In this document: piece by piece, positions 1 to 34,454 of the stretch | Layout of the letters: the number at the start of each line of letters is the position of its first letter | How positions within the stretch are numbered: the first letter of the stretch is position 1 | Origin: Spartobacteria bacterium | GTDB lineage: Bacteria > Verrucomicrobiota > Verrucomicrobiia > Chthoniobacterales > UBA10450 | NCBI GenBank assembly: GCA_003134785.1 | Contig: PLCN01000003.1 | Coordinates: forward strand, 62,001 to 126,000 | Length of the DNA: 64,000 nucleotides | Reading direction: 5' to 3' | The notes under the pieces: model-generated | Told to the model about the DNA's origin: nothing | The model's database searches: none | What the model saw: only the letters and a program-made list of their open reading frames with translations | Translations under genes and position numbers: made by a program

Positions 1-375
1 GCGCTCGACACTTGCAACGGCAAGTTCAAGATCTTCAGCGAGCTGCCCGGTTATTGCGGTTTCTATTTCAAAGACGATTTCGAACTTAATCCTGACGGCG
101 TCGCGAAACATTTCGTCGCGGAGAACAAACCGCGCCTCCTCGCCGTTCGCGAAGCCTTCGCCGGGTTGGATAATTTTGACGCCGCAAAACTCGAGACCGG
201 CTTGAAGGCCACGGCCGCGCAGCTCAATGTCAAAGTCGGCGCCTTAGTCCATCCCACCCGTCTCGCCGTCACCGGCACTAACGCCGGACCGAGCCTGTAT
301 CATCTGCTTGAAATTCTTGGCAAAGATAGGGTGCTCGCGCGCATTGATCGCGCTCTGAATCTGCTGCCTGGGTAG
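1..375 (+). CDS. gltX: Glutamyl-tRNA synthetase, C-terminal fragment (5' end outside window)
   Basis: Only the last 124 residues are visible, open from base 1 in frame 1. This is the C-terminal anticodon-binding region of a class I glutamyl-tRNA synthetase, which charges tRNA-Glu in the cytoplasm. The words VHPTRLAVTG and LGKDRVLARI near the end are the usual closing signature of the family; the catalytic HIGH and KMSKS motifs lie upstream of the window. The gene converges on glnS, so two related synthetases face each other. Its TAG stop lies inside the left arm of the inverted repeat at 369-506. Identity is secure from the C-terminus alone, though a GluQRS-type or tRNA-Gln-charging variant cannot be excluded without the N-terminus. 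Confidence 0.9.
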   Translation, partial: ALDTCNGKFKIFSELPGYCGFYFKDDFELNPDGVAKHFVAENKPRLLAVREAFAGLDNFDAAKLETGLKATAAQLNVKVGALVHPTRLAVTGTNAGPSLYHLLEILGKDRVLARIDRALNLLPG

Positions 376-506
376 CGCACGCGTCTCGCGTGTCTGGCGA
401 TGGCGTCTCGCCATTGCGAACTTCATCGGCGCGCCGGCAAACCCTGGAAGAAAAGTTCGTTTCGGCGAGACGCCGAAACCAGCACGCGAGACGCGTGCGC
501 TACCCA
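369..506. repeat. Intergenic inverted repeat between gltX and glnS
   Basis: The 24 bases at 369-392 are repeated exactly, as reverse complement, at 483-506. Nested inside are two shorter GC-rich hairpins: GGCGATGGCGTCTCGCC near 395-412 and CGGCGAGACGCCG near 460-475. The left edge TGGGTAG holds the TAG stop of gltX. The right edge lies 11 bases before the glnS stop. I group it with the double-hairpin family of this window because it has the same layout: a constant edge with TAG, variable palindromic cores and a position at gene ends. It may also act as a two-way terminator. Confidence 0.8.
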
Positions 507-517
507 GAAGCTCGTTT

Positions 518-2206
518 CTACCGCTTCTTAACTTCCTTTGCCCACGTGTCCTTCAACGTGATCGTGCGATTCAAGACCAGCACACCAGGCTGCGAATCGG
601 GATCGAGCGCGAAGTAGCCGAGACGCTCGAACTGATAGCGGAGGGCGGGATCGGCGTCTTTCAGCGATGGTTCGCATTTGGCGGTCACAACTTCGAGCGA
701 GTTCGGATTCACGAAGGACTTGAAGTCACCATCAGCATCGGGCTCCGGAACTGTGAAAAGCCGATCGTAAAGCCGCACTTCGGCCTCGATCGCATGCGCC
801 GCGCTCACCCAATGAATCGTGCCCTTGATTTTGCGACGCGAGGTTGCGCCACCCGTCTTGCTCTCGAGATCGGCCGAGCAACGTAATTCGATCACATTAC
901 CCGCGTCATCTTTCACGACCTCGTCGCACTTAATAATGTAGGCGTACTTAAGCCGCACTTCGCCGCCTGGCTTCAAACGAAAATATTTTGGCGGCGGAGT
1001 TTCCGCGAAATCCGCGCTCTCTATGAATAACTCGCGGCTGAACGGAATTTTGCGCGAGCCGGCCCCGGGATCTTCCGGATTATTCACCGCTTCGAGTTCC
1101 TCGATCTGACCTCCGGGATAATTCGTGATCACGATTTTGATCGGTCGAAGCACGGCAAGGCGACGGGGCGAGGTCCGATTGAATTCCTCGCGCACAGTGT
1201 GCTCGAGCACCGCGACGTCCGTCATGCTCGGATATTTCGTGATGCCGATGTTGTAGGCGAAAGAGCGCAACCCGCTGGCGGTCATGCCGCGGCGCCGGAG
1301 ACCGGAAATGGTCGGCATGCGCGGATCGTCCCAGCCGTTGACGAGCCCATCGCTCACGAGCTCCATGAGCTTGCGCTTGCTCATGACCGTGTAGGTAAGG
1401 TTCAGTCGCGCGAATTCGTATTGATGTGGCAGGGGGCGCGGCAGATCGAGCGACGCAAGCAGCCAATCATAAAGCGGCCGATGCACCTCGAACTCAAGGG
1501 TACAGATCGAATGGGTAATGCCTTCGATGTAATCGCTCAGCGTATGCGCAAAATCGTACATCGGATAAATGCGCCATGCATTGCCGGTTTGATGATGCTC
1601 CGCGTGACGGATGCGATAGAGCACCGGATCGCGCAGCCACATATTCGGCGCGCTCATGTCGATCTTTGCGCGAAGCGTGCGCGCGCCATCCGGAAATTCG
1701 CCCGCTTTCATTCGCGCGAGCAGATCGAGATTTTCCTCGGATGGGCGATTTCGAAACGGGCCCTCTTTTCCGAGCCGGCGATACTCGTCCGTTTCCTCGG
1801 GCGTCATGTCGCAAACGTAGGCGTTGCCCTTCCGCACGAGTTCGACCGCGTAATCGTAAAGCTGGCCGAAATAATCGGACGCGTAACCCGGAGCGCGACC
1901 CAGGTGCTCATTCGCCCATTCATCAATGAGCCATTTCACATCGAACATGATGGAATCGATGTATTCGGTCTCTTCCTTGGCGGGATTTGTGTCGTCCATG
2001 CGGATATTGCAGATCCCGCCAAACTCGCGCGCGATGCCGAAGTTCAGGCAAATCGATTTCGCGTGGCCGATGTGCAGATAGCCGTTCGGTTCCGGCGGAA
2101 AGCGCGTGCAAATTTTCTCATGCTTTCCGGACCGAAGATCCTCCGCCACAATGTCGCGGATAAAATCGGAAGGAGCTGCGGGCGCGTTCTCGTTAGGCGT
2201 CGTCAT
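518..2206 (-). CDS. glnS: Glutaminyl-tRNA synthetase
   Basis: A class I synthetase of 562 residues that charges tRNA-Gln with glutamine; length matches the family. The ATP-binding motif is visible as [15 protein letters not shown] with HIGH at residues 45-48. The second signature is the KMSKS variant VMSKRKL near residue 275. The catalytic half is followed by the two beta-barrel anticodon-binding domains. A direct GlnRS implies that this bacterium need not rely only on the transamidation route for Gln-tRNA. The ATG start at 2206 fits the usual short N-terminal tail before the Rossmann core. Its eighth to fifteenth coding bases include the octamer CCTAACGA, discussed as a finding. The gene is convergent with gltX and divergent from aroE. 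Confidence 0.97.
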
Positions 2207-2302
2207 TCTCGTGCGCGACAGTAGCAGACGAACGCGACTAGAGACAAGGAGAGGCGCTTTCCTTGCGAAGCCTGCAGCCTTCTCGACTGTATCGGAAGAA
2301 TC

Positions 2303-3217
2303 GTGAAAGAGATCTACACGCTGAAGGATTTGCAGGACTGGCCTCGGCCTCAGAAAAAATCTGTTCCGCCCATCCGTCTTGGGATCCTAGGCGATCCCGT
2401 GGCACACTCGCTTTCGCCGCAAATGCAAAACGCCGGGCTGGAGAGCTGCGGCCTCAAGCTACGTTATGCGCGATTCGAAATCGATTCGGGTGAGTTGCCA
2501 ACCGCGCTCGATTTATTGAGAAAGCTGGATTTTGCCGGCGTCAATTTGACGGTCCCGCACAAGATCGCGGCGCTGGAGTTTATGGACGATGTCGATGAAC
2601 ACGCCCGGCAAATCGGCGCCGTGAACACCATCAAGATCGACGATGGAAAATTGCGCGGGTTCAACACGGATGGAAAAGGATTCTCCCGCGCGATTCGCGA
2701 GGAATTCTCCGTCGATCTGCGCGATCTGCGGGTGCTGGTCCTTGGCGCGGGCGGCGCGGCTCGGGCGATTGCGTTGCAATGCGCGAAAGAGAATTGCGAG
2801 CGGCTCGTCATCGCAAACCGCACCATCGAAAAAGCCGGCGACCTGGCGAAGGAACTCCGCGACTTTTTCGCCGGACCCAAAGTGTTTGGACCGGTGCCGC
2901 GCTTGCAAGCGATTCCATGGGAAGAGAGCGCCTTCCGGTTTCAAATTGCGAATATCGATCTCGTCGTCAACACGACCTCGGTCGGATTGAATCGCGCGGA
3001 CGCATCCCCCATTCCGGCGCGCTTGCTCGCGCCGCATTTGATGATTTACGACACGATCTATTCCAGCGTGCGGACACCGTTCGTTTCCGCCGCGCTGGAA
3101 TCCGGCGCGCGCGGCGCGAATGGATTGTCGATGTTGTTGCATCAAGGCGCGCTCGCGTTCGAGATTTGGTTTGAGCGCGAAGCTCCTCTCGATGCGATGC
3201 GCGCCGCGCTCCTGTAG
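2303..3217 (+). CDS. aroE: Shikimate dehydrogenase
   Basis: NADP-dependent reduction of 3-dehydroshikimate to shikimate in aromatic amino acid synthesis. The 304-residue protein has the substrate-binding N-terminal half with [16 protein letters not shown] (residues about 29-44), NLTVPHK with the catalytic Lys, and GAVNTI. The NADP Rossmann half shows [11 protein letters not shown] and NRTIEKA. The C-terminal region has NTTSVGL and [17 protein letters not shown]. One oddity is Gln in QMQNAG where the family usually has His. The start is GTG at 2303; about 20 residues precede the core, slightly longer than usual, and no better start is obvious. Its TAG stop is the TAG in the left edge of the repeat element at 3212-3290. 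Confidence 0.95.
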
Positions 3218-3290
3218 CCGCTTCGCTATGCGAAGCGCGAGGGGCGGTGTGTCAGTTGCACCGGCGTCGCCCACAGGGTGATGGCTACAG
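3212..3290. repeat. Double-ended palindromic element with stop codons of aroE and proC
   Basis: The left part, 3212-3237, starts CTGTAG and forms the hairpin CCGCTTCGC-TAT-GCGAAGCG. The right edge, 3285-3290, is CTACAG, the complement of the left edge. The same 26 bases as the left part occur in reverse orientation at 21092-21117. The TAG of the left edge is the stop codon of aroE and the TAG on the opposite strand in the right edge is the stop codon of proC, so the element exactly fills the gap between two convergent genes. Confidence 0.85.
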
Positions 3291-4118
3291 ATTTTCCTGC
3301 GCCATCTCTTGCCCGCGTTTCGTTGCGGCCTCAATTGCCGCGATCAAGCCTTCGGAAGTCTTGAGTTCATTCATCGCGGCGAGGCCGGCGGCCGTCGTGC
3401 CACCCGGCGTCACCACCATCCTGCGTAATTCCTCCGGCGAAAGTTTCGTTTCACTGGCGAGTTGCGCGGCGCCCAGCACGGTCTGCGTTGCGAGCGTCAA
3501 CGCGATGTCACCGGCGAGCCCCATTTTCTTCCCGCCTTCAGCGAACGCTTCGATCACCGTGTAAACGAAAGCCGGGCCGCTACCACTGAGCGCCGTCACC
3601 GCATCGATTTGCGCTTCGTCGACTTCCACAACAGCGCCAATCGCACTGAAGAGCCTTCGCGCCAGATCGACATCTTCATCTCGCGTACGTGAGCCGCGCG
3701 CCAGTGCAGTCGCCGCCCGGCAGATCGCCGAAGGCGTGTTGGTCAGCGCACGCATAAAACGCGCTGGGGCGCTCGTCGCCATCGCTTCGAGGCGAATGCC
3801 CGCCGCAAGCGAAATGACGAATTTATCCTTCAGGACAGGGGCGAGACCGCGCACCACCTGCAAGACCACCGCCGGTTTAACGCCGATCAAAATCGTGTCG
3901 GCAAACTCAGCCACCTCGGTGTTCTCCGCGGTCACCGAGATTCCCACTTCGTCGCGCAATGCCGCACGAAGAGTGTCGTTCGGCTCGCCGGCGATAATTT
4001 CTCCCGGCGCACAAAATTCTGCGCGCAGCAGTCCTCGAATGACCGAACCAGCAAGCTTCCCCGCCCCAATAAAGCCGAGGCGGTAGCGACGAGCGGGTGT
4101 TTGTAAATCAGCGTTGAT
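3285..4118 (-). CDS. proC: Pyrroline-5-carboxylate reductase, start codon unclear
   Basis: Last step of proline synthesis: NAD(P)H-dependent reduction of pyrroline-5-carboxylate. The N-terminal nucleotide motif reads LGFIGAGKLAGSVIRGL, followed by ILIGVKPAVV, LAAGI, and the C-terminal substrate region ALSGSGPAFVYTVIEAF and VVTPGGTTAAGL, all typical. Length is about 277 residues if the start is near 4118. The frame is open from the stop at 4128-4130, but between it and the glycine motif there is no ATG, GTG or TTG; the ATC at 4118-4116 is the most plausible position by length. A start at 3959 (TTG) would remove the nucleotide-binding motif and is unlikely. The gene is divergent from nadA with almost no gap. 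The function is secure and the start is not. Confidence 0.88.
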   Translation of the reverse strand: MNADLQTPARRYRLGFIGAGKLAGSVIRGLLRAEFCAPGEIIAGEPNDTLRAALRDEVGISVTAENTEVAEFADTILIGVKPAVVLQVVRGLAPVLKDKFVISLAAGIRLEAMATSAPARFMRALTNTPSAICRAATALARGSRTRDEDVDLARRLFSAIGAVVEVDEAQIDAVTALSGSGPAFVYTVIEAFAEGGKKMGLAGDIALTLATQTVLGAAQLASETKLSPEELRRMVVTPGGTTAAGLAAMNELKTSEGLIAAIEAATKRGQEMAQENL

Positions 4119-4134
4119 CCGACGATATTAACCG

Positions 4135-5094
4135 ATGGTAAGCAGTGGTGTAAACTTTGGTCTCGCCGGGATTGATCTCGCGGAAGAGATCGCCGAGCTG
4201 AAGCGGGAGAGGAATGCAGTCATCCTCGCGCACAACTACCAGGTGCCGGAGATTCAGGACCTCGCCGACTACGTGGGAGATTCGCTCGGCCTGAGCTATC
4301 AGGCGGCGAAAACCGACGCCGAGGTGATCCTTTTCTGCGGGGTCCATTTCATGGCCGAGACCGCGAAAATCATCAACCCGGCCAAGCGGGTCTTGCTGCC
4401 CGATCTCGACGCCGGCTGTTCGCTTTCGGAATCATGCCCGCCGGAAAAGTTGAAGGCGTATCTCGATCAACACGCGGACAAAAATTATTACGTCATTGCC
4501 TACATCAATTGCAGCGCGGGGGTGAAGGCGCTTTCCGATGTGATTTGCACCAGTGGCAATGCTGAAAAAATCGTGCGCAGCGCGCCGCCCGATCGAAACA
4601 TACTTTTTGTCCCCGACCAAAATCTCGGCGCGTGGGTGATCGAGCGGACGGGACGGCCGATGGATCTTTGGCAGGGAAACTGTTACGTGCACGTGGAGTT
4701 CACCGCGCGCAGCATCGGCAGAATCCGCGAAGAATATCCCGACGCTCCGGTCGTGGCTCATCCGGAATGTCCGTACGCCGTTCGTCTGCTCGCGGATGAA
4801 GTTTGCTCGACCGAAAAGATGGTTTCGTTTTGCCGGGAATCCCCTGCGCGCGAGATCATCGTCGTGACCGAGGCGGGGATGCTGCATCGGTTGCACAAGG
4901 AAATTCCGGGAAAGAAATTCATTCCTGGCCCAACGGAGCGTTGCGCCTGCGCGGAATGCCGGTTCATGAAAATGAACACACTCGAGAAGGTCCATGCCGC
5001 ACTCTTGAACATGACGCCGGAAATCACTTTGCCCGAACCCCTGCGAAAACGCGCCGAAGCGCCGATCCTGCGCATGCTCGAACTGAGCAGGTAG
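4135..5094 (+). CDS. nadA: Quinolinate synthase
   Basis: Condenses iminoaspartate with dihydroxyacetone phosphate to quinolinate, the second step of de novo NAD synthesis. The 319-residue protein has the expected threefold domain layout and the three conserved cysteines that hold the 4Fe-4S cluster: in INCSAGVKA, in HPECPYAV and in TERCACAECRF. Other family words are LAHNYQVPEIQDLADYVGDS and DAGCSLSESCP. The ATG at 4135 is the first in frame and fits the usual N-terminus. No nadB or nadC is next to it. It stops one base before the repeat element at 5095-5173. Confidence 0.96.
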   Translation: MVSSGVNFGLAGIDLAEEIAELKRERNAVILAHNYQVPEIQDLADYVGDSLGLSYQAAKTDAEVILFCGVHFMAETAKIINPAKRVLLPDLDAGCSLSESCPPEKLKAYLDQHADKNYYVIAYINCSAGVKALSDVICTSGNAEKIVRSAPPDRNILFVPDQNLGAWVIERTGRPMDLWQGNCYVHVEFTARSIGRIREEYPDAPVVAHPECPYAVRLLADEVCSTEKMVSFCRESPAREIIVVTEAGMLHRLHKEIPGKKFIPGPTERCACAECRFMKMNTLEKVHAALLNMTPEITLPEPLRKRAEAPILRMLELSR

Positions 5095-5173
5095 CTGCAG
5101 CCGCTTCGCTGCGCGAAGCGTGAGCTCGACGTGCGAATTCAAAACCGCGCCGCGCACAGCGCGGCGGCTACAG
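5095..5173. repeat. Double-hairpin intergenic element after nadA
   Basis: Left hairpin 5095-5120: CTGCAG followed by CCGCTTCGC-TGC-GCGAAGCG, which differs from the copy at 3212 in three bases. Right hairpin near 5145-5173: a different GC core, CCGCGC...GCGCGG, closed by GGCTACAG. So the outer edges are constant and the right core has changed. The element begins one base after the TAG stop of nadA. Confidence 0.8.
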
Positions 5174-5217
5174 TTGCCACTTGTCACTCGTGGCTTTTCC
5201 CTCTTCACTTCTGCGCG

Positions 5218-6459
5218 ATGCAGCGACCCACCATCTGGCTCATGCTTGTGGTCCTGTTGCTCGGAGTGCTCTTTCTCCGCGAACCGCGCCTGGAGCAATC
5301 CGAGGATTTTTTCCTGCGCTGGCTCTTGAAAAATTCCGACCCGCACGGTCCGATGGCGCCGCTGACGGTGGTCGAGATCGGTCATGATGCCGTCATGGAA
5401 CGTGAGCCGCTGAAAGATTCAGCCGAGACCTCGCCTCACTCGGGAGGCAGCGTGATCTCGCCTTTGGAGTTCGCGCTTTTCCTTCAGTCAGCGCTCGAGT
5501 TTCAGCCTACCGTCGTGGCCTTCGAGAATATCTTGAAATGGCGTGAGCGCGACAAGGACCAGGAGCAGGTTTTCATCGATCAGGCGATGCGCGTGCCGAA
5601 GTTGCTGCTCGCCGCGGAACTAACGACGACGCCCGATCCGGATTCGCCCGGTCCGGAAATTCAGGGCTTCACCCAGGTGACGGGAAAGCGCGGCGATCTG
5701 GTCGAGTTTTCTGGAATCGGACGCCAACCCGGGGAAGAAATGCGTCTCATTGCGACCGCCGGGTTCATCAATCTCCCCGACGAAATCGCGGATGGAATCC
5801 ACGTCCCGCTTCTCTTCCGCTATCGCGGCGAAGTGATCCCCTCGTTCACGTTCGAAGCGATTCTGCTTTGGCTGAGCGTGACGCCGGCGGAGGTAACCAT
5901 CGACCTCGGCTCCAATATTTCCCTGCCGCAGGGACGCAAGATTCCGATTCGCGCGGATGGCACGATCCTGATTTCTCCCAATGCGGGCAAAAAGGCGCGT
6001 CATCTCAGGCTGAACGAACTGCTGCTGGCCGCGCAGCAACATGACGCCGGAAAGGAGAGCCCGGACGTCGCCTCGATGCGCAATCAAATCGTGCTGGCGC
6101 GGACGCCGTCGAACCCTCTTTCACCGCCGGATATTTTCGCGGCGACGCTGGCGACGATTCAAACCAACGCCTATGTCCGTCGCGTCAGTTGGATTTTTGA
6201 TTGCGTGGTCCTTTTGATCGCGGCTGCCGTAATCGGAATCCTGCGAAACCTTCCCCGGGTGGATCTGGTGCTGGGCGCGATCGCATTTACTGCGGCGTAT
6301 TGCCTCATCGCGCTGGCGATTGTTTCCCGTTGGCTGATCTGGCTTCCGGGCGTGCTGCCGCTCGGCGCCCTCTGGATGCTGGTCGTAATCGCCGTCGCAA
6401 CGCACCGCTATCGCGCCCAACGGCCGAACGCCACCACGATTCCGCCGGCTATTCCTTGA
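5218..6459 (+). CDS. CHASE2-like sensor-type membrane protein without output domain
   Basis: A 413-residue protein with an N-terminal membrane segment (TIWLMLVVLLLGVLF, residues about 5-19), a long extracytoplasmic stretch of about 300 residues, and three membrane helices near the C-terminus (residues about 320-400). The pattern, with VVEIGHDAV early, FENILKWRERD in the middle and RVSWIFDCVVLLIAAAVIG before the helices, is that of CHASE2 domains, which normally sense an unknown periplasmic signal and feed a cyclase, kinase or phosphatase. Here the protein ends 15 to 20 residues after the last helix, so no catalytic part is attached. ATG 5218 is preferred to an in-frame start at 5131 because the latter would translate the repeat element. 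The family call is moderate. Confidence 0.65.
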   Translation: MQRPTIWLMLVVLLLGVLFLREPRLEQSEDFFLRWLLKNSDPHGPMAPLTVVEIGHDAVMEREPLKDSAETSPHSGGSVISPLEFALFLQSALEFQPTVVAFENILKWRERDKDQEQVFIDQAMRVPKLLLAAELTTTPDPDSPGPEIQGFTQVTGKRGDLVEFSGIGRQPGEEMRLIATAGFINLPDEIADGIHVPLLFRYRGEVIPSFTFEAILLWLSVTPAEVTIDLGSNISLPQGRKIPIRADGTILISPNAGKKARHLRLNELLLAAQQHDAGKESPDVASMRNQIVLARTPSNPLSPPDIFAATLATIQTNAYVRRVSWIFDCVVLLIAAAVIGILRNLPRVDLVLGAIAFTAAYCLIALAIVSRWLIWLPGVLPLGALWMLVVIAVATHRYRAQRPNATTIPPAIP

Positions 6460-12447: not shown

Positions 12448-12536
12448 GCTCGTGCTCGTGCTCGTGCTCGTAATCGTAATCGTAATCGTAATCGTAATCG
12501 AAGGTTAGAGAATCGAGCAGGAGCACGAGCACGAGG
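12448..12536. repeat. Hexanucleotide tandem array with inverted partner
   Basis: Four copies of GCTCGT (12448-12471) pass directly into four copies of AATCGT plus one AATCGA (12472-12501). After a short gap, 12512-12536 carries the reverse-complement word (GAGCAC repeated), so the right part can pair with the left array. The 200-base gap from 12431 to 12630 otherwise holds no gene that I can support; it would have to contain the infA promoter. Confidence 0.85.
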
Positions 12537-18525: not shown

Positions 18526-18568
18526 GGAGCGGCGGCGAATGTCGCGAAATCGAAGCGAGACGCAAGGA

Positions 18569-18635
18569 TGTAGAGACGCTTGGGCCAAGCGCCTAACCAA
18601 CAAGACAGGCGCCCGCCGCGGCGGGCGCCTCTACA
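18569..18635. repeat. Double-hairpin element between ABC-F and epimerase genes
   Basis: Edges TGTAGAG (18569-18575) and CCTCTACA (18628-18635) are complementary. The left hairpin core is CGCTTGGGCCAAGCG; the right is GGCGCCCGCCGCGGCGGGCGCC. The spacer contains AACAAGACA, also present in the element at 25874-25937. The TAG read from the right edge on the minus strand (18633-18631) is the stop codon of the epimerase gene. Confidence 0.85.
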
Positions 18636-19585
18636 TTCCGCGCCAGCGCCGGCAAAGCTCACGCGCGGCCTCTTTCCATTTCGGAAACTTGAATTCGAAA
18701 CCATCATGCAAGAGCCGGCTGGGAATGACCCGCCGGCTTTTCAACACCAGCTCTGTTTCCGTGCGCAAAAAAAAGGTCGCGATCTCCAGCATGCATTTCG
18801 CCGCAGGCAATCCCACTCTCGTTCCCCAAGCCTTGCGCAAAACCCGCATGAACTCCGCGTTTGGCAACGGATTCGGCGACGCAAGAATCACGACGCCTTC
18901 GAAATTCTCACGCGTGATCAGCCAATAAATCGCCCGAATAAAATCGTCGTCGTGAATCCAGGAAACATATTGGCGGCCGTTCCCCCACCCTGCCCCCAAG
19001 TCCGTGTCGAACCAGACCAAGCAGAACATCGAAGATACCTCCGCGATCGGGACTCAGGATCACGGCCGACCGCATTAGCACCTTGCGCGTGAGCAGCAAT
19101 GGCGGCGCTTCGTTAAAGGCGCGTTCCCACACCTTCGCCACGTCGGTGCTGAAACGCCAGGTCTCAGGAACATTCCGCTCGTTCCCGCCGATAATGCCAA
19201 AAGCTTCGTCATTCGCGGCATCATAACGATGCGCATAGATGGTGGCCGTCGCCGCCTGCAGCCAAAGACGGGGAGGACGTTGTGCGCGAGCGATTGCCTG
19301 CCCTACTGCTCTCGTCGAATCGACGCGTGAGCGCGTTATCTCCTCGCGATTTCTGGAGGTGTAGCGACAGTTTACGCTTTTCCCGGCGAGATTTATTACG
19401 GCGTCCGCCGCTTCAAATTCTTCAGCCCAATCTTCCAGGGTGCGTCCATCCCAAAAGACGGCTCGTCCGGCAATCTTCGCCGCTCGCTGGCGTGTTAGAA
19501 CCACAACCTCATGGTCGTCCTTCAAGAAAGCTCGCGCCAACACCTGCCCGACTTGCCCCGATCCTCCCACGATCACGATTTTCAC
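18631..19585 (-). pseudogene. TIGR01777-type sugar-nucleotide epimerase (SDR family), one-base frameshift
   Basis: The reading frame begins at GTG 19585 (VKIVIVGGSGQVGQVLARAF, an NAD(P) motif) and continues through NLAGKSVNCRY, TRAVGQAI and SPDRGGIFDV. At 18982-18986 there is a run of five C on the plus strand (five G in the gene). Reading the run as four restores the second part, GNGRQYVSWIHDDDF, LASPNPLPNAEF and a normal C-terminus. The total is 955 bases, one more than a multiple of three, for about 317 residues, the normal family length. So either the gene carries a recent single-base insertion or the base is a sequencing error. Members of this family are widespread, mostly uncharacterised epimerases. 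The GTG overlaps the TGA of the upstream gene. Confidence 0.8.
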
Positions 19586-21015: not shown

Positions 21016-21091
21016 TGAAATAGTCAAGATTGTTATTGGAGTGGGCGACGGCGAAGATCGCGGGCGGGCGAGAATGGAAGCATCTCTCCCG

Positions 21092-21117
21092 CGCTTCGCA
21101 TAGCGAAGCGGCTACAG
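21092..21117. repeat. Half element identical to 3212-3237 in reverse orientation
   Basis: The 26 bases, CGCTTCGCATAGCGAAGCG followed by GCTACAG, are the exact reverse complement of 3212-3237. It lies seven bases beyond the tkt stop codon (21124-21126). Only one hairpin is present here, so it is a half copy or a remnant. Confidence 0.85.
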
Positions 21118-21123
21118 GAAGGG

Positions 21124-24542: not shown

Positions 24543-25901
24543 ATGAAGCTCTCGGAAATCGATGCCACGTTGCGCGAGATTCAGGTCGCGCCAGTAAAAA
24601 CCCTCGGGCAAAATTTTTTGCACGATCAGAACCTGGCGCGTTGGATTGTCGATAAGGCGGACCTGACCGCGGAAGATTACATAGTGGAAATCGGGCCCGG
24701 CCTCGGCGCGCTGACGCAGTTTTTGCTCGACTCAGGCGCGCGCGTCCTCGCGATCGAAAAAGATCGGCGGCTGGCGGATTTCTTGCGCAAACGTTTCACC
24801 ACCGATCGCTTCGAAATTCTCCACGCAGACGCACTGGATTTCGACCTCCGCCAACTCTTCTCCCAGCTGCGCGTGAAATTGCTCGGCAACCTCCCCTACT
24901 ACATTTCGAGTCAGCTGCTTTTGAAGTTCACAAAATACCCAAGCCCGATATCGTTGTGGTTGTTGATGTTACAGAAGGAAATGGCGCGGCGTATTTCGGC
25001 CACGCCCGGGACCAGCGATTACGGCGCGCTCACGCTCGTCGTTCAACTTCACTATCGCGTCGAATATTTGCGCACCGTACCCGCAAGTGTTTTTCTTCCG
25101 CAGCCGGACGTTGATTCCGCCTTCGTTCGCCTCTCACCGCGCGCTCACGATGAATTGCCGGATTACGACGCGGAAACTTTTTCTCGGGTCGTCCGCCGCG
25201 GGTTTTCGCAACGGCGCAAGCAGCTGCGAAATTTACTGCGGGAAGAGATTCCAGCCTGGAACGAGGCGGCGAGCGCGATCGGCTTCGATCCGCGAGCGCG
25301 CGCGGAGGAACTCACTCTCGAGCAATGGATCGCGCTCTCGAATCTCGCCCAATCGGCGGACAGTTCAGCGCCGGTTTCAATCGGTTTGGAAAGTTTTCCC
25401 GTGGTGGACGAAGAGGACTGCGTCTTGGGAGAAGCGCCGCGTGCCGAAGTGCATGGGAATAACTTGCGCCATCGGGCTGTTCACATCCTGGTTTTTAACT
25501 CTCTGGGCGAGCTCTTTTTGCAAAAGCGCTCGCGCTGGAAGGACCGTCATCCGCGACTTTGGGATTCCAGCGCGGCGGGACATGTGGACGCAGGTGAGGA
25601 CTACGACGCGGCGGCAAGCCGGGAATTTCAGGAAGAACTTGGCGTGACTGCGGAGCTAACGCGCGTGACAAAACTCCGCGCGACCGAAAAGACAGGTCAG
25701 GAATTCATTTGGCTTTATCGCGCGCAACACGATGGCCCGTTCGAATTGGCTCGGTCCGAGATCGAGTACGGCGAATTCTTCCCCGTGAACGTGATTTCAG
25801 AATGGATCAAAGCCCGGCCTGACGATTTCGCTCCTGGCTTCCTGGAATGCTGGAAAGCCTCAACGCAGGATGATGTAGAGGCGCTTGTGCCAAGCGCCTA
25901 A
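24543..25901 (+). CDS. rsmA: RsmA (KsgA) 16S rRNA dimethyltransferase fused to a NUDIX hydrolase
   Basis: A 452-residue two-domain protein. Residues 1-270 are the 16S rRNA adenine-1518/1519 dimethyltransferase RsmA: LGQNFLHDQN, the SAM motif VEIGPGLGALTQF (residues 48-60), the catalytic NLPYY (116-120) and the C-terminal FSQRRKQLRNLL. Residues 285-452 are a NUDIX hydrolase with a complete box between Gly346 and Val368 (GHVDAGE, seven residues, then REFQEELGV), in a sequence most like IPP-isomerase or YfcD-type NUDIX proteins (HRAVHILVF, LFLQKRSRWKDRHPRLW). The two halves share one frame with no internal stop. ATG 24543 matches the usual RsmA start. The stop lies inside the hairpin element at 25874-25937. 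Confidence 0.92.
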   Translation: MKLSEIDATLREIQVAPVKTLGQNFLHDQNLARWIVDKADLTAEDYIVEIGPGLGALTQFLLDSGARVLAIEKDRRLADFLRKRFTTDRFEILHADALDFDLRQLFSQLRVKLLGNLPYYISSQLLLKFTKYPSPISLWLLMLQKEMARRISATPGTSDYGALTLVVQLHYRVEYLRTVPASVFLPQPDVDSAFVRLSPRAHDELPDYDAETFSRVVRRGFSQRRKQLRNLLREEIPAWNEAASAIGFDPRARAEELTLEQWIALSNLAQSADSSAPVSIGLESFPVVDEEDCVLGEAPRAEVHGNNLRHRAVHILVFNSLGELFLQKRSRWKDRHPRLWDSSAAGHVDAGEDYDAAASREFQEELGVTAELTRVTKLRATEKTGQEFIWLYRAQHDGPFELARSEIEYGEFFPVNVISEWIKARPDDFAPGFLECWKASTQDDVEALVPSA

Positions 25902-25937
25902 CAAGACAAGCAGGCGCTTGGCACAAGCGCCTCTACA
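25874..25937. repeat. Double-hairpin element with perfect 26-base arms
   Basis: TGTAGAGG at the left and CCTCTACA at the right enclose two hairpins. 25874-25899 and 25912-25937 are perfect reverse complements (26 bases), with a spacer holding AACAAGACA. Each arm is itself a hairpin (GGCGCTTG-TGC-CAAGCGCC). The TAA stop of rsmA-NUDIX lies inside the left arm, and the TAG of the AP2-like gene abuts the right edge. Confidence 0.9.
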
Positions 25938-26240
25938 CTAACGGCCGCGCGTTTTCTTTCCCTTAACCTTCGCGGGTATCTTCGCCCGCGCTTTCTTCGC
26001 GCTAATCGGCCCGCGAAAAACGCGGGCGGGCAATCCGCCCATGGCCGAGCGCTTGAACTTACGAGCAGCGCGTCGCGCCCCTTCCTTCCCGCCGTGTCCG
26101 TTGTCGCTAAACAAACGCGTGACGGTTTCTCCTCCGCGCAAGAAGTGAACTTGAAAGCCGTGCGTTTGTTTTTTAGCGCGCGGCTTCGTGTCGATGCGAC
26201 GGATATTTTCTTCCGAGTCTGGATTAGCTCTTTTTTTCAT
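25938..26240 (-). CDS. Small basic protein with AP2-like domain, unknown function
   Basis: A 100-residue protein, very basic (many Lys and Arg). The middle, HGFQVHFLRGG, ETVTRLFSDNGHGG and EGARRAARKFK, resembles the AP2/ERF-type DNA-binding fold, with its G-x-W/Q-V, F-x-D and GG-x-x-A-A pattern; bacterial AP2-like domains occur in small DNA-binding proteins and integrase neighbours. The Lys/Arg/Ala tail (KKARAKIPAKVKGKKTRGR) resembles histone-like tails. No close function can be named. The gene converges with rsmA-NUDIX and its stop abuts the repeat element. Confidence 0.55.
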   Translation of the reverse strand: MKKRANPDSEENIRRIDTKPRAKKQTHGFQVHFLRGGETVTRLFSDNGHGGKEGARRAARKFKRSAMGGLPARVFRGPISAKKARAKIPAKVKGKKTRGR

Positions 26241-31020: not shown

Positions 31021-31078
31021 GTGGAAAGCGAATCTGCCGAATTCAAGGGGCGCGAACGCTTGGGCACAAGCATCATCT

Positions 31079-31233
31079 GTCATCCCGAGTTGCGTAGACG
31101 GCGAGGGATCTCACGATGCTCTAGCCGCTTTTAGCGGCACGTTGAGCTTGCAATTCGAATCACGCGTGACTCTGCCTGTGTGATGAGGGTCCGTGGGAGA
31201 CGTCCCTCGCCGTCTGCGCGGCTCGGGATGACA
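31079..31233. repeat. Long imperfect inverted repeat downstream of secA and upstream of recQ
   Basis: The left arm begins TGTCATCCCGAG (31079-31114) and the right arm ends CTCGGGATGACA (to 31233); they pair over about 35 bases with a few mismatches and share AGACGGCGAGGGA. A small hairpin, GCCGC-TTTTA-GCGGC, lies between them. The outer word is one I recall as a widespread intergenic repeat in several phyla. Together with 31255-31278 it fills the gap between recQ and secA, which holds no gene. Confidence 0.75.
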
Positions 31234-34365: not shown

Positions 34366-34454
34366 CTCACACGAAGGTCACAAAGGGCACGACGTGATTC
34401 ATAACCCTTAGGCCGTTATTTTTCCTTTGTGCACTTTGTGACCTTTGTGTGAGG
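34366..34454. repeat. Inverted repeat in the secA-ridA divergent gap
   Basis: CTCACACGAAGGTCACAAAG (34366-34385) pairs with CTTTGTGACCTTTGTGTGAG near 34434-34453, about 20 of 21 positions, with roughly 45 bases between. It sits upstream of both genes, so it may lie within their promoter zone. The same word family recurs in other genomes, from memory. Confidence 0.7.

Follow-up and report, generated by a model that had tools for sequence, protein, structure and literature searches.

The question raised by the window analysed here, a stretch of 64,000 nucleotides from the 4.39-Mb, 25-contig genome of an uncultured Verrucomicrobiota (its nadA exhibiting 83% identity to that of the MAG Verrucomicrobia bacterium AV59, and mostly 62-73% to those of other Verrucomicrobiota), is how several of its genes, including the convergent pair aroE and proC, came to end on TAG codons lying within the edges of short repeat elements. 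The first-pass annotation had proposed that such edges supply the stops of aroE, proC, gltX and an epimerase gene, and direct reading at the edges confirmed all four. The same annotation listed seven genes in total, and for the remaining three (nadA, the AP2-like gene and rsmA-NUDIX) the stops proved to be near-misses rather than edge stops. The relevant features, in window coordinates, are as follows.

368 to 507: REPIN with edges CTGGGTAG and CTACCCAG; outer arms of 25 nt, 100% complementary; RNA fold z = -11.8
373 to 375, plus strand: stop of gltX, the left-edge TAG, read directly
3212 to 3290: REPIN between the convergent genes aroE and proC, with edges CTGTAG and CTACAG
3215 to 3217, plus strand: stop of aroE (2423-3217), the left-edge TAG, read directly
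3285 to 3287, minus strand: stop of proC (3285-3959), the right-edge TAG, read directly
5092 to 5094, plus strand: nadA's own TAG stop, abutting a mutated element edge (CTGCAG, 5095)
5095 to 5173: REPIN 3' of nadA, with its right edge CTACAG intact
18568 to 18636: REPIN of the ATGTAGAG family
18631 to 18633, minus strand: stop of a DUF1731 epimerase-type gene, the right-edge TAG
21090 to 21119, minus strand: REP of the CTGTAGCCGCTTCGC family, its TAG located 12 nt past the first base of the TAA of the 21124-24369 gene
25873 to 25937: REPIN between the rsmA-NUDIX and AP2-like genes; 26-nt perfect inverted repeat; fold z = -11.2
25899 to 25901, plus strand: stop of rsmA-NUDIX, a TAA within the arm, the gene passing the head out of frame
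25938 to 25940, minus strand: the AP2-like gene's own TAG stop, abutting a TGTAG edge

Pfam matches supported the identities of gltX, aroE, proC, the epimerase, nadA and rsmA-NUDIX. As had also been claimed, a single element gives both aroE and proC their stops, through its left-edge TAG at 3215-3217 and its right-edge TAG at 3287-3285. The 21124-24369 gene retains its native TAA beside the adjoining REP. The CTGCAG edge of the element next to nadA (5095) is a decayed edge from which the TAG has been lost.

The window elements are REPs with GTAG heads, most of them joined in pairs as REPINs. Each head consists of a GTAG tetranucleotide followed immediately by a hairpin, and inverted pairs with their heads outward, evident also in the predicted folds, are the usual arrangement in the window. 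Strict GTAG-hairpin copies numbered 104 in 864 kb of the genome (the 64-kb window plus forty systematic 20-kb stretches), and 99 of these were intergenic. The families present include CTGTAGC-CGCTTCGC, CTGTAG-CGGCGGTC, CTGTAGC-CGCCGC and ATGTAG-AGGCGC; the conserved edge is CTGTAG or ATGTAG, with strong conservation starting at the CT (or T) preceding GTAG, and the bases upstream of it are near-random, with a weak pyrimidine bias in the first three of these families. Classification of the elements as IS200/IS605 insertion sequences was rejected, as at ~65-140 bp they are too short for a transposase gene and encode none of their own.

Searches of the genome returned eight Y1-transposase matches, two of which exceeded the NCBIfam cut-off for REP-associated tyrosine transposases (RAYTs) and also matched the solved structure of E. 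coli TnpA-REP, 4er8 (E = 2e-10 and 6e-8). One of these RAYTs, in L034, sits between two REPs, and the other, in L032, adjoins a REPIN (CTGTAGCGGCGGTC REPs). RAYT (TnpA-REP) transposases are most probably the movers of the REPs. At L028 11894-13312 and L032 1366-1857, a RAYT-neighbour gene, MurC/Mpl-like by eye, was observed to end CTG TAG at a REP-like hairpin (CGGCGATCTATGACCGCCG) located near the RAYT gene start.

Counts against chance were based on gene ends taken from a home-made gene caller, with d defined as the offset from the head TAG to the nearest same-strand stop, and the expectation as uniform placement within the gap. In the source genome d was 0 for 10 of the 99 intergenic heads against 0.29 expected (p = 8e-13; 864 kb), one of the ten, the secA case (31280), being less certain by virtue of the 6-nt loop of its hairpin; the count is nevertheless conservative, since proC, gltX and the epimerase escape the strict hairpin score. 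Equivalent counts in G007 and G005, members of the same genus, and G017, of the same family, gave 3, 2 and 4 heads at d = 0 against 0.08, 0.11 and 0.14 expected. With the four genomes pooled, 19 of ~148 heads lay at d = 0, against about one per neighbouring position (1.07 per base over d = 6 to 35), and none lay at d = 1 to 5, a gap partly forced by the letters at d = 1 and 2. Random placement relative to stops, the outcome that the first-pass annotation had named as speaking against it, was thus not found in these four genomes. That some TAGs of many REPs in gene-dense DNA merely happened to land on stops has a negligible probability: TAG is indeed frequent, at 167 of 557 stops, and the vicinity of 3' ends is where REPs tend to lie in any case, but these counts refute the idea.

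By extrapolation, the source genome may contain roughly 50-75 edge-ended genes. CTG was the last codon of 15/167 genes ending in TAG, 5/155 ending in TAA and 1/235 ending in TGA. Any hairpin after the stop was recorded for 18/167 TAG genes as against 16/390 TGA or TAA genes (p = 0.006), and with a stricter hairpin score for 11/167 as against 5/390 (p = 0.001), an enrichment that is modest; noise from ordinary hairpins makes it weaker than that of the head-based comparison. Captured stops were rejected as the cause of the high TAG usage, as they account for only ~10-15 of the 167 TAG stops.

The very likely explanation is that GTAG REPs and REPINs moved by RAYTs insert near gene ends, where an in-frame edge TAG becomes the new stop, a process here termed stop capture. 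Read outward, either end of a REPIN gives ...(C/A)TGTAG, and a gene that enters it in the appropriate frame is stopped immediately. An insertion lying only a few codons from a stop would survive when the edge TAG is in frame, that TAG then replacing the old stop, probably with a near-neutral effect on the host, and insertions causing out-of-frame read-in would mostly be lost. In tight convergent pairs such as aroE and proC, one REPIN could replace both stops and separate the genes.

Comparison of ten gene ends with their orthologues, the check that the first-pass annotation had called for, showed that nine conform to stop capture, the orthologous proteins being ~60-95% identical and none of the cases preserving an exact before/after junction. 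Element-free relatives have other last codons followed by TAA, TGA or TAG, the versions with an element end CTG TAG or CCT GGG TAG, and the accompanying shift in the C-terminus is about -4 to +5 residues. Mutations close to the junction could imitate some of this change. The gene in L042, for example, ends ...GTG ATT CTT CTG TAG, as against ATC ACT CTA TGA, ATC GTT CCC TAA, ATC ACG CCG TAG and others in relatives; that in L024 ends ...GCG CTG TAG, and all same-genus relatives run four or five codons further; and that in L046 ends ...CGG GGA ATG TAG, as against several different endings elsewhere. The gltX gene ends ...CTG CCT GGG TAG here and ...TTG CCC GGG TAG in G006, these being the only compared genomes in which its product ends (L/Q)-L-P-G and both having that kind of REP, while in other relatives it ends ...SKF*, ...GTF* or ...SAKIS*; the final PG is element-coded, since other copies of that REP family also have CTGGGTAG as their edge.

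On the plus strand of L038 the gene extends three codons past its end in G001, G005 and G007 and has GAG where those have TAG, perhaps because the native TAG was lost by mutation with the element TAG serving as a back-up; G002 has the longer end too, together with a partly deleted REP. On the minus strand of L038 the ending is ...CAG CCT CTG TAG as against ...CGC TGA in G002, and an edge stop is present in G007 too. A class III aminotransferase gene (L037) has REP-edge stops, from different families, in the source genome (G000), G002, G004/G006 and G018, but not in G001, G003, G005 or G007. The sole exception among the ten ends was L022, for which both close relatives have TAG at the same codon. 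The direction of change would be insertion rather than loss, because the element-free endings vary and the edge codons are the repeat's own. These differing element-free ends support the suggestion that an element which brings a stop with it could insert at the 3' end of a gene and leave that gene unharmed.

A rival possibility, by analogy with IS200/IS605 elements, which insert beside a fixed target, is that the enzyme inserts beside a GTAG-like tetranucleotide, favouring genes that already end G-TAG, such that the stop predates the element. Relatives of IS200/IS605 pick their cleavage sites via short sequences (PMC8266576), L022 conforms to such a choice, and nadA, the AP2-like gene and the proC of G005 each end in a TAG of their own lying immediately ahead of an edge. 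Nevertheless, such target choice is very unlikely to account for the edge stops: the nine gene ends that differ in element-free relatives often have TAA or TGA there, the tetranucleotide is present at both ends of a REPIN so that at most one could be target-derived, and the conservation of CTGTAG extends to copies with no stop nearby.

Two of the ten compared ends, those of aroE and proC, meet at a junction whose convergent gene order many family members retain. In several relatives without an element the two stops overlap, with gaps of -8 (G001), -6 (G012) and -6 (G030), the palindrome TTATAA of G012 and G030 serving as Leu-stop for both genes, and the stops of G002, G017 and G026 read as overlapping too. 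With a REPIN present the gap is 67 in the source genome, 43 in G028, 38 in G034 and 45 in G019, and each of these four has edge stops, or what remains of them, for both genes: in G034 (L141) a decayed edge, TGTAA for TGTAG, is still the aroE stop. G007 has the same double edge stop, and in G005 the TAG of proC directly 5' of the edge is its own. The element in G019 belongs to a different REP family, and the occurrence of differing families at one junction implies independent insertion or replacement in place. Comparison of TT[GTAG...CTAC]AA in G019 with TTATAA in G012 and G030 is suggestive of an exact insertion site, the sequences being too diverged for this to be claimed. Three further double captures were recorded in the samples: L038 in the source genome, L294 in G007 and L343 in G017.

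Reading frame provided additional evidence. Across the four genomes, 19 in-frame edge stops contrasted with two genes that read through a head and stopped within 160 nt, a bias with p = 8e-8 against the 1:2 expectation for frame-blind insertion near the 3' end, in which one third of read-ins would stop at the edge; the test presumes that insertion itself favours neither frame nor site. Most simply, insertions that were out of frame would have appended element-coded residues and been lost, and site preference could also contribute.

A different possibility, compatible with capture, is that selection keeps the element at gene ends for a benefit such as insulation of convergent genes, blocking of read-through, protection or tuning of the mRNA, or slowing of ribosomes at the stop; this is unlikely on present evidence, though conceivable. 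The first-pass suggestion that the element may be retained for ending both genes and their transcripts would be a benefit of this sort. The element edges supply translation stops, and the edge stops fall within the stable outer stem predicted for the REPIN RNA. REPs in E. coli within 15 nt of a stop have been reported to stall ribosomes (cited in PMC12306157), by analogy with which an effect on expression is plausible here. The presence of REPs at the aroE/proC and class III aminotransferase ends in several genera is also in keeping with a benefit, but such recurrence can equally reflect tolerance of the site, common ancestry or the substitution of one REP for another in place. Nor were GC-rich hairpins followed by a T run, as in Rho-independent terminators, any commoner in window 1-6000 (5 sites) than in shuffles (7.9, sd 2.7). 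Two of these five sites lie within REPINs (479-459 and 5165-5144, both on the minus strand), and the scan located none in the aroE/proC element. The aroE/proC junction, with both empty and filled sites, offers a natural series with which to address tolerance versus benefit.

An extension of stop capture, which we consider decidedly unlikely, is that the outward TAG itself contributes to the success of GTAG REPINs: self-terminating at both ends, they would settle in tight or overlapping gene ends closed to other elements, over time remodelling C-termini and separating convergent genes, with GTAG selected for host tolerance as well as transposase binding.

A general link between REPs and stops was already published in 2013: the available portions of Di Nocera, De Gregorio and Rocco (PMC3733652) report that flanking ORFs often take their TAG stop from GTAG REP termini, and that REPs are concentrated within 20 bp of 3' ends. 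The repeats described there resemble those in the window in their GTAG head, hairpin, intergenic location, proximity to 3' ends and occurrence in Verrucomicrobia (Opitutus terrae), and differ in that another genome and other repeat families were studied here; those same portions contained no count of stop-giving edges against chance, frame analysis or element-free orthologue comparison. The REPIN/RAYT systems outlined in the corresponding portions of PMC3116915 and PMC2817692 share the inverted REP pairs, outward heads and RAYT genes flanked by REPs, but stop capture did not feature in them. In the ribosome-stalling REPs of E. coli (PMC12306157), a hairpin likewise directly follows the stop, but there the stop precedes the REP, whereas here the REP edge is the stop. 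Searches of the literature on bacterial elements that supply stops returned nothing closer than PMC3733652. New here are the comparison of the count with chance expectation, the bias in frame, and the evidence for capture from relatives, which extends to double capture where the stops of convergent genes would otherwise overlap. The comparison with element-free relatives shows how the ends of genes can be rewritten by a mobile repeat, apparently at little cost, a finding relevant to the crowding of REPs at 3' ends and to the evolution of protein C-termini. It also matters for annotation, since the final residues of a protein, for instance L* or PG*, may be encoded by an element.

Other repeats were also noted in the window. 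A second type, TGTCATCCCGAG...CTCGGGATGACA, lies between genes at 31078-31233 and recurs in L155, L259 and L264; in G007 and G016 the tail at the C-terminus of gltX (...SLSSRAESRDPEA and ...SAAEGSRGET) appears to be encoded by related sequence. A third inverted repeat, CTCACACGAAGGTCACAAAGG...CCTTTGTGTGAG, of a type distinct from the REPs, is located at 34366-34453, and CTCGTG tandem repeats with an inverted copy nearby occupy 12449-12535.
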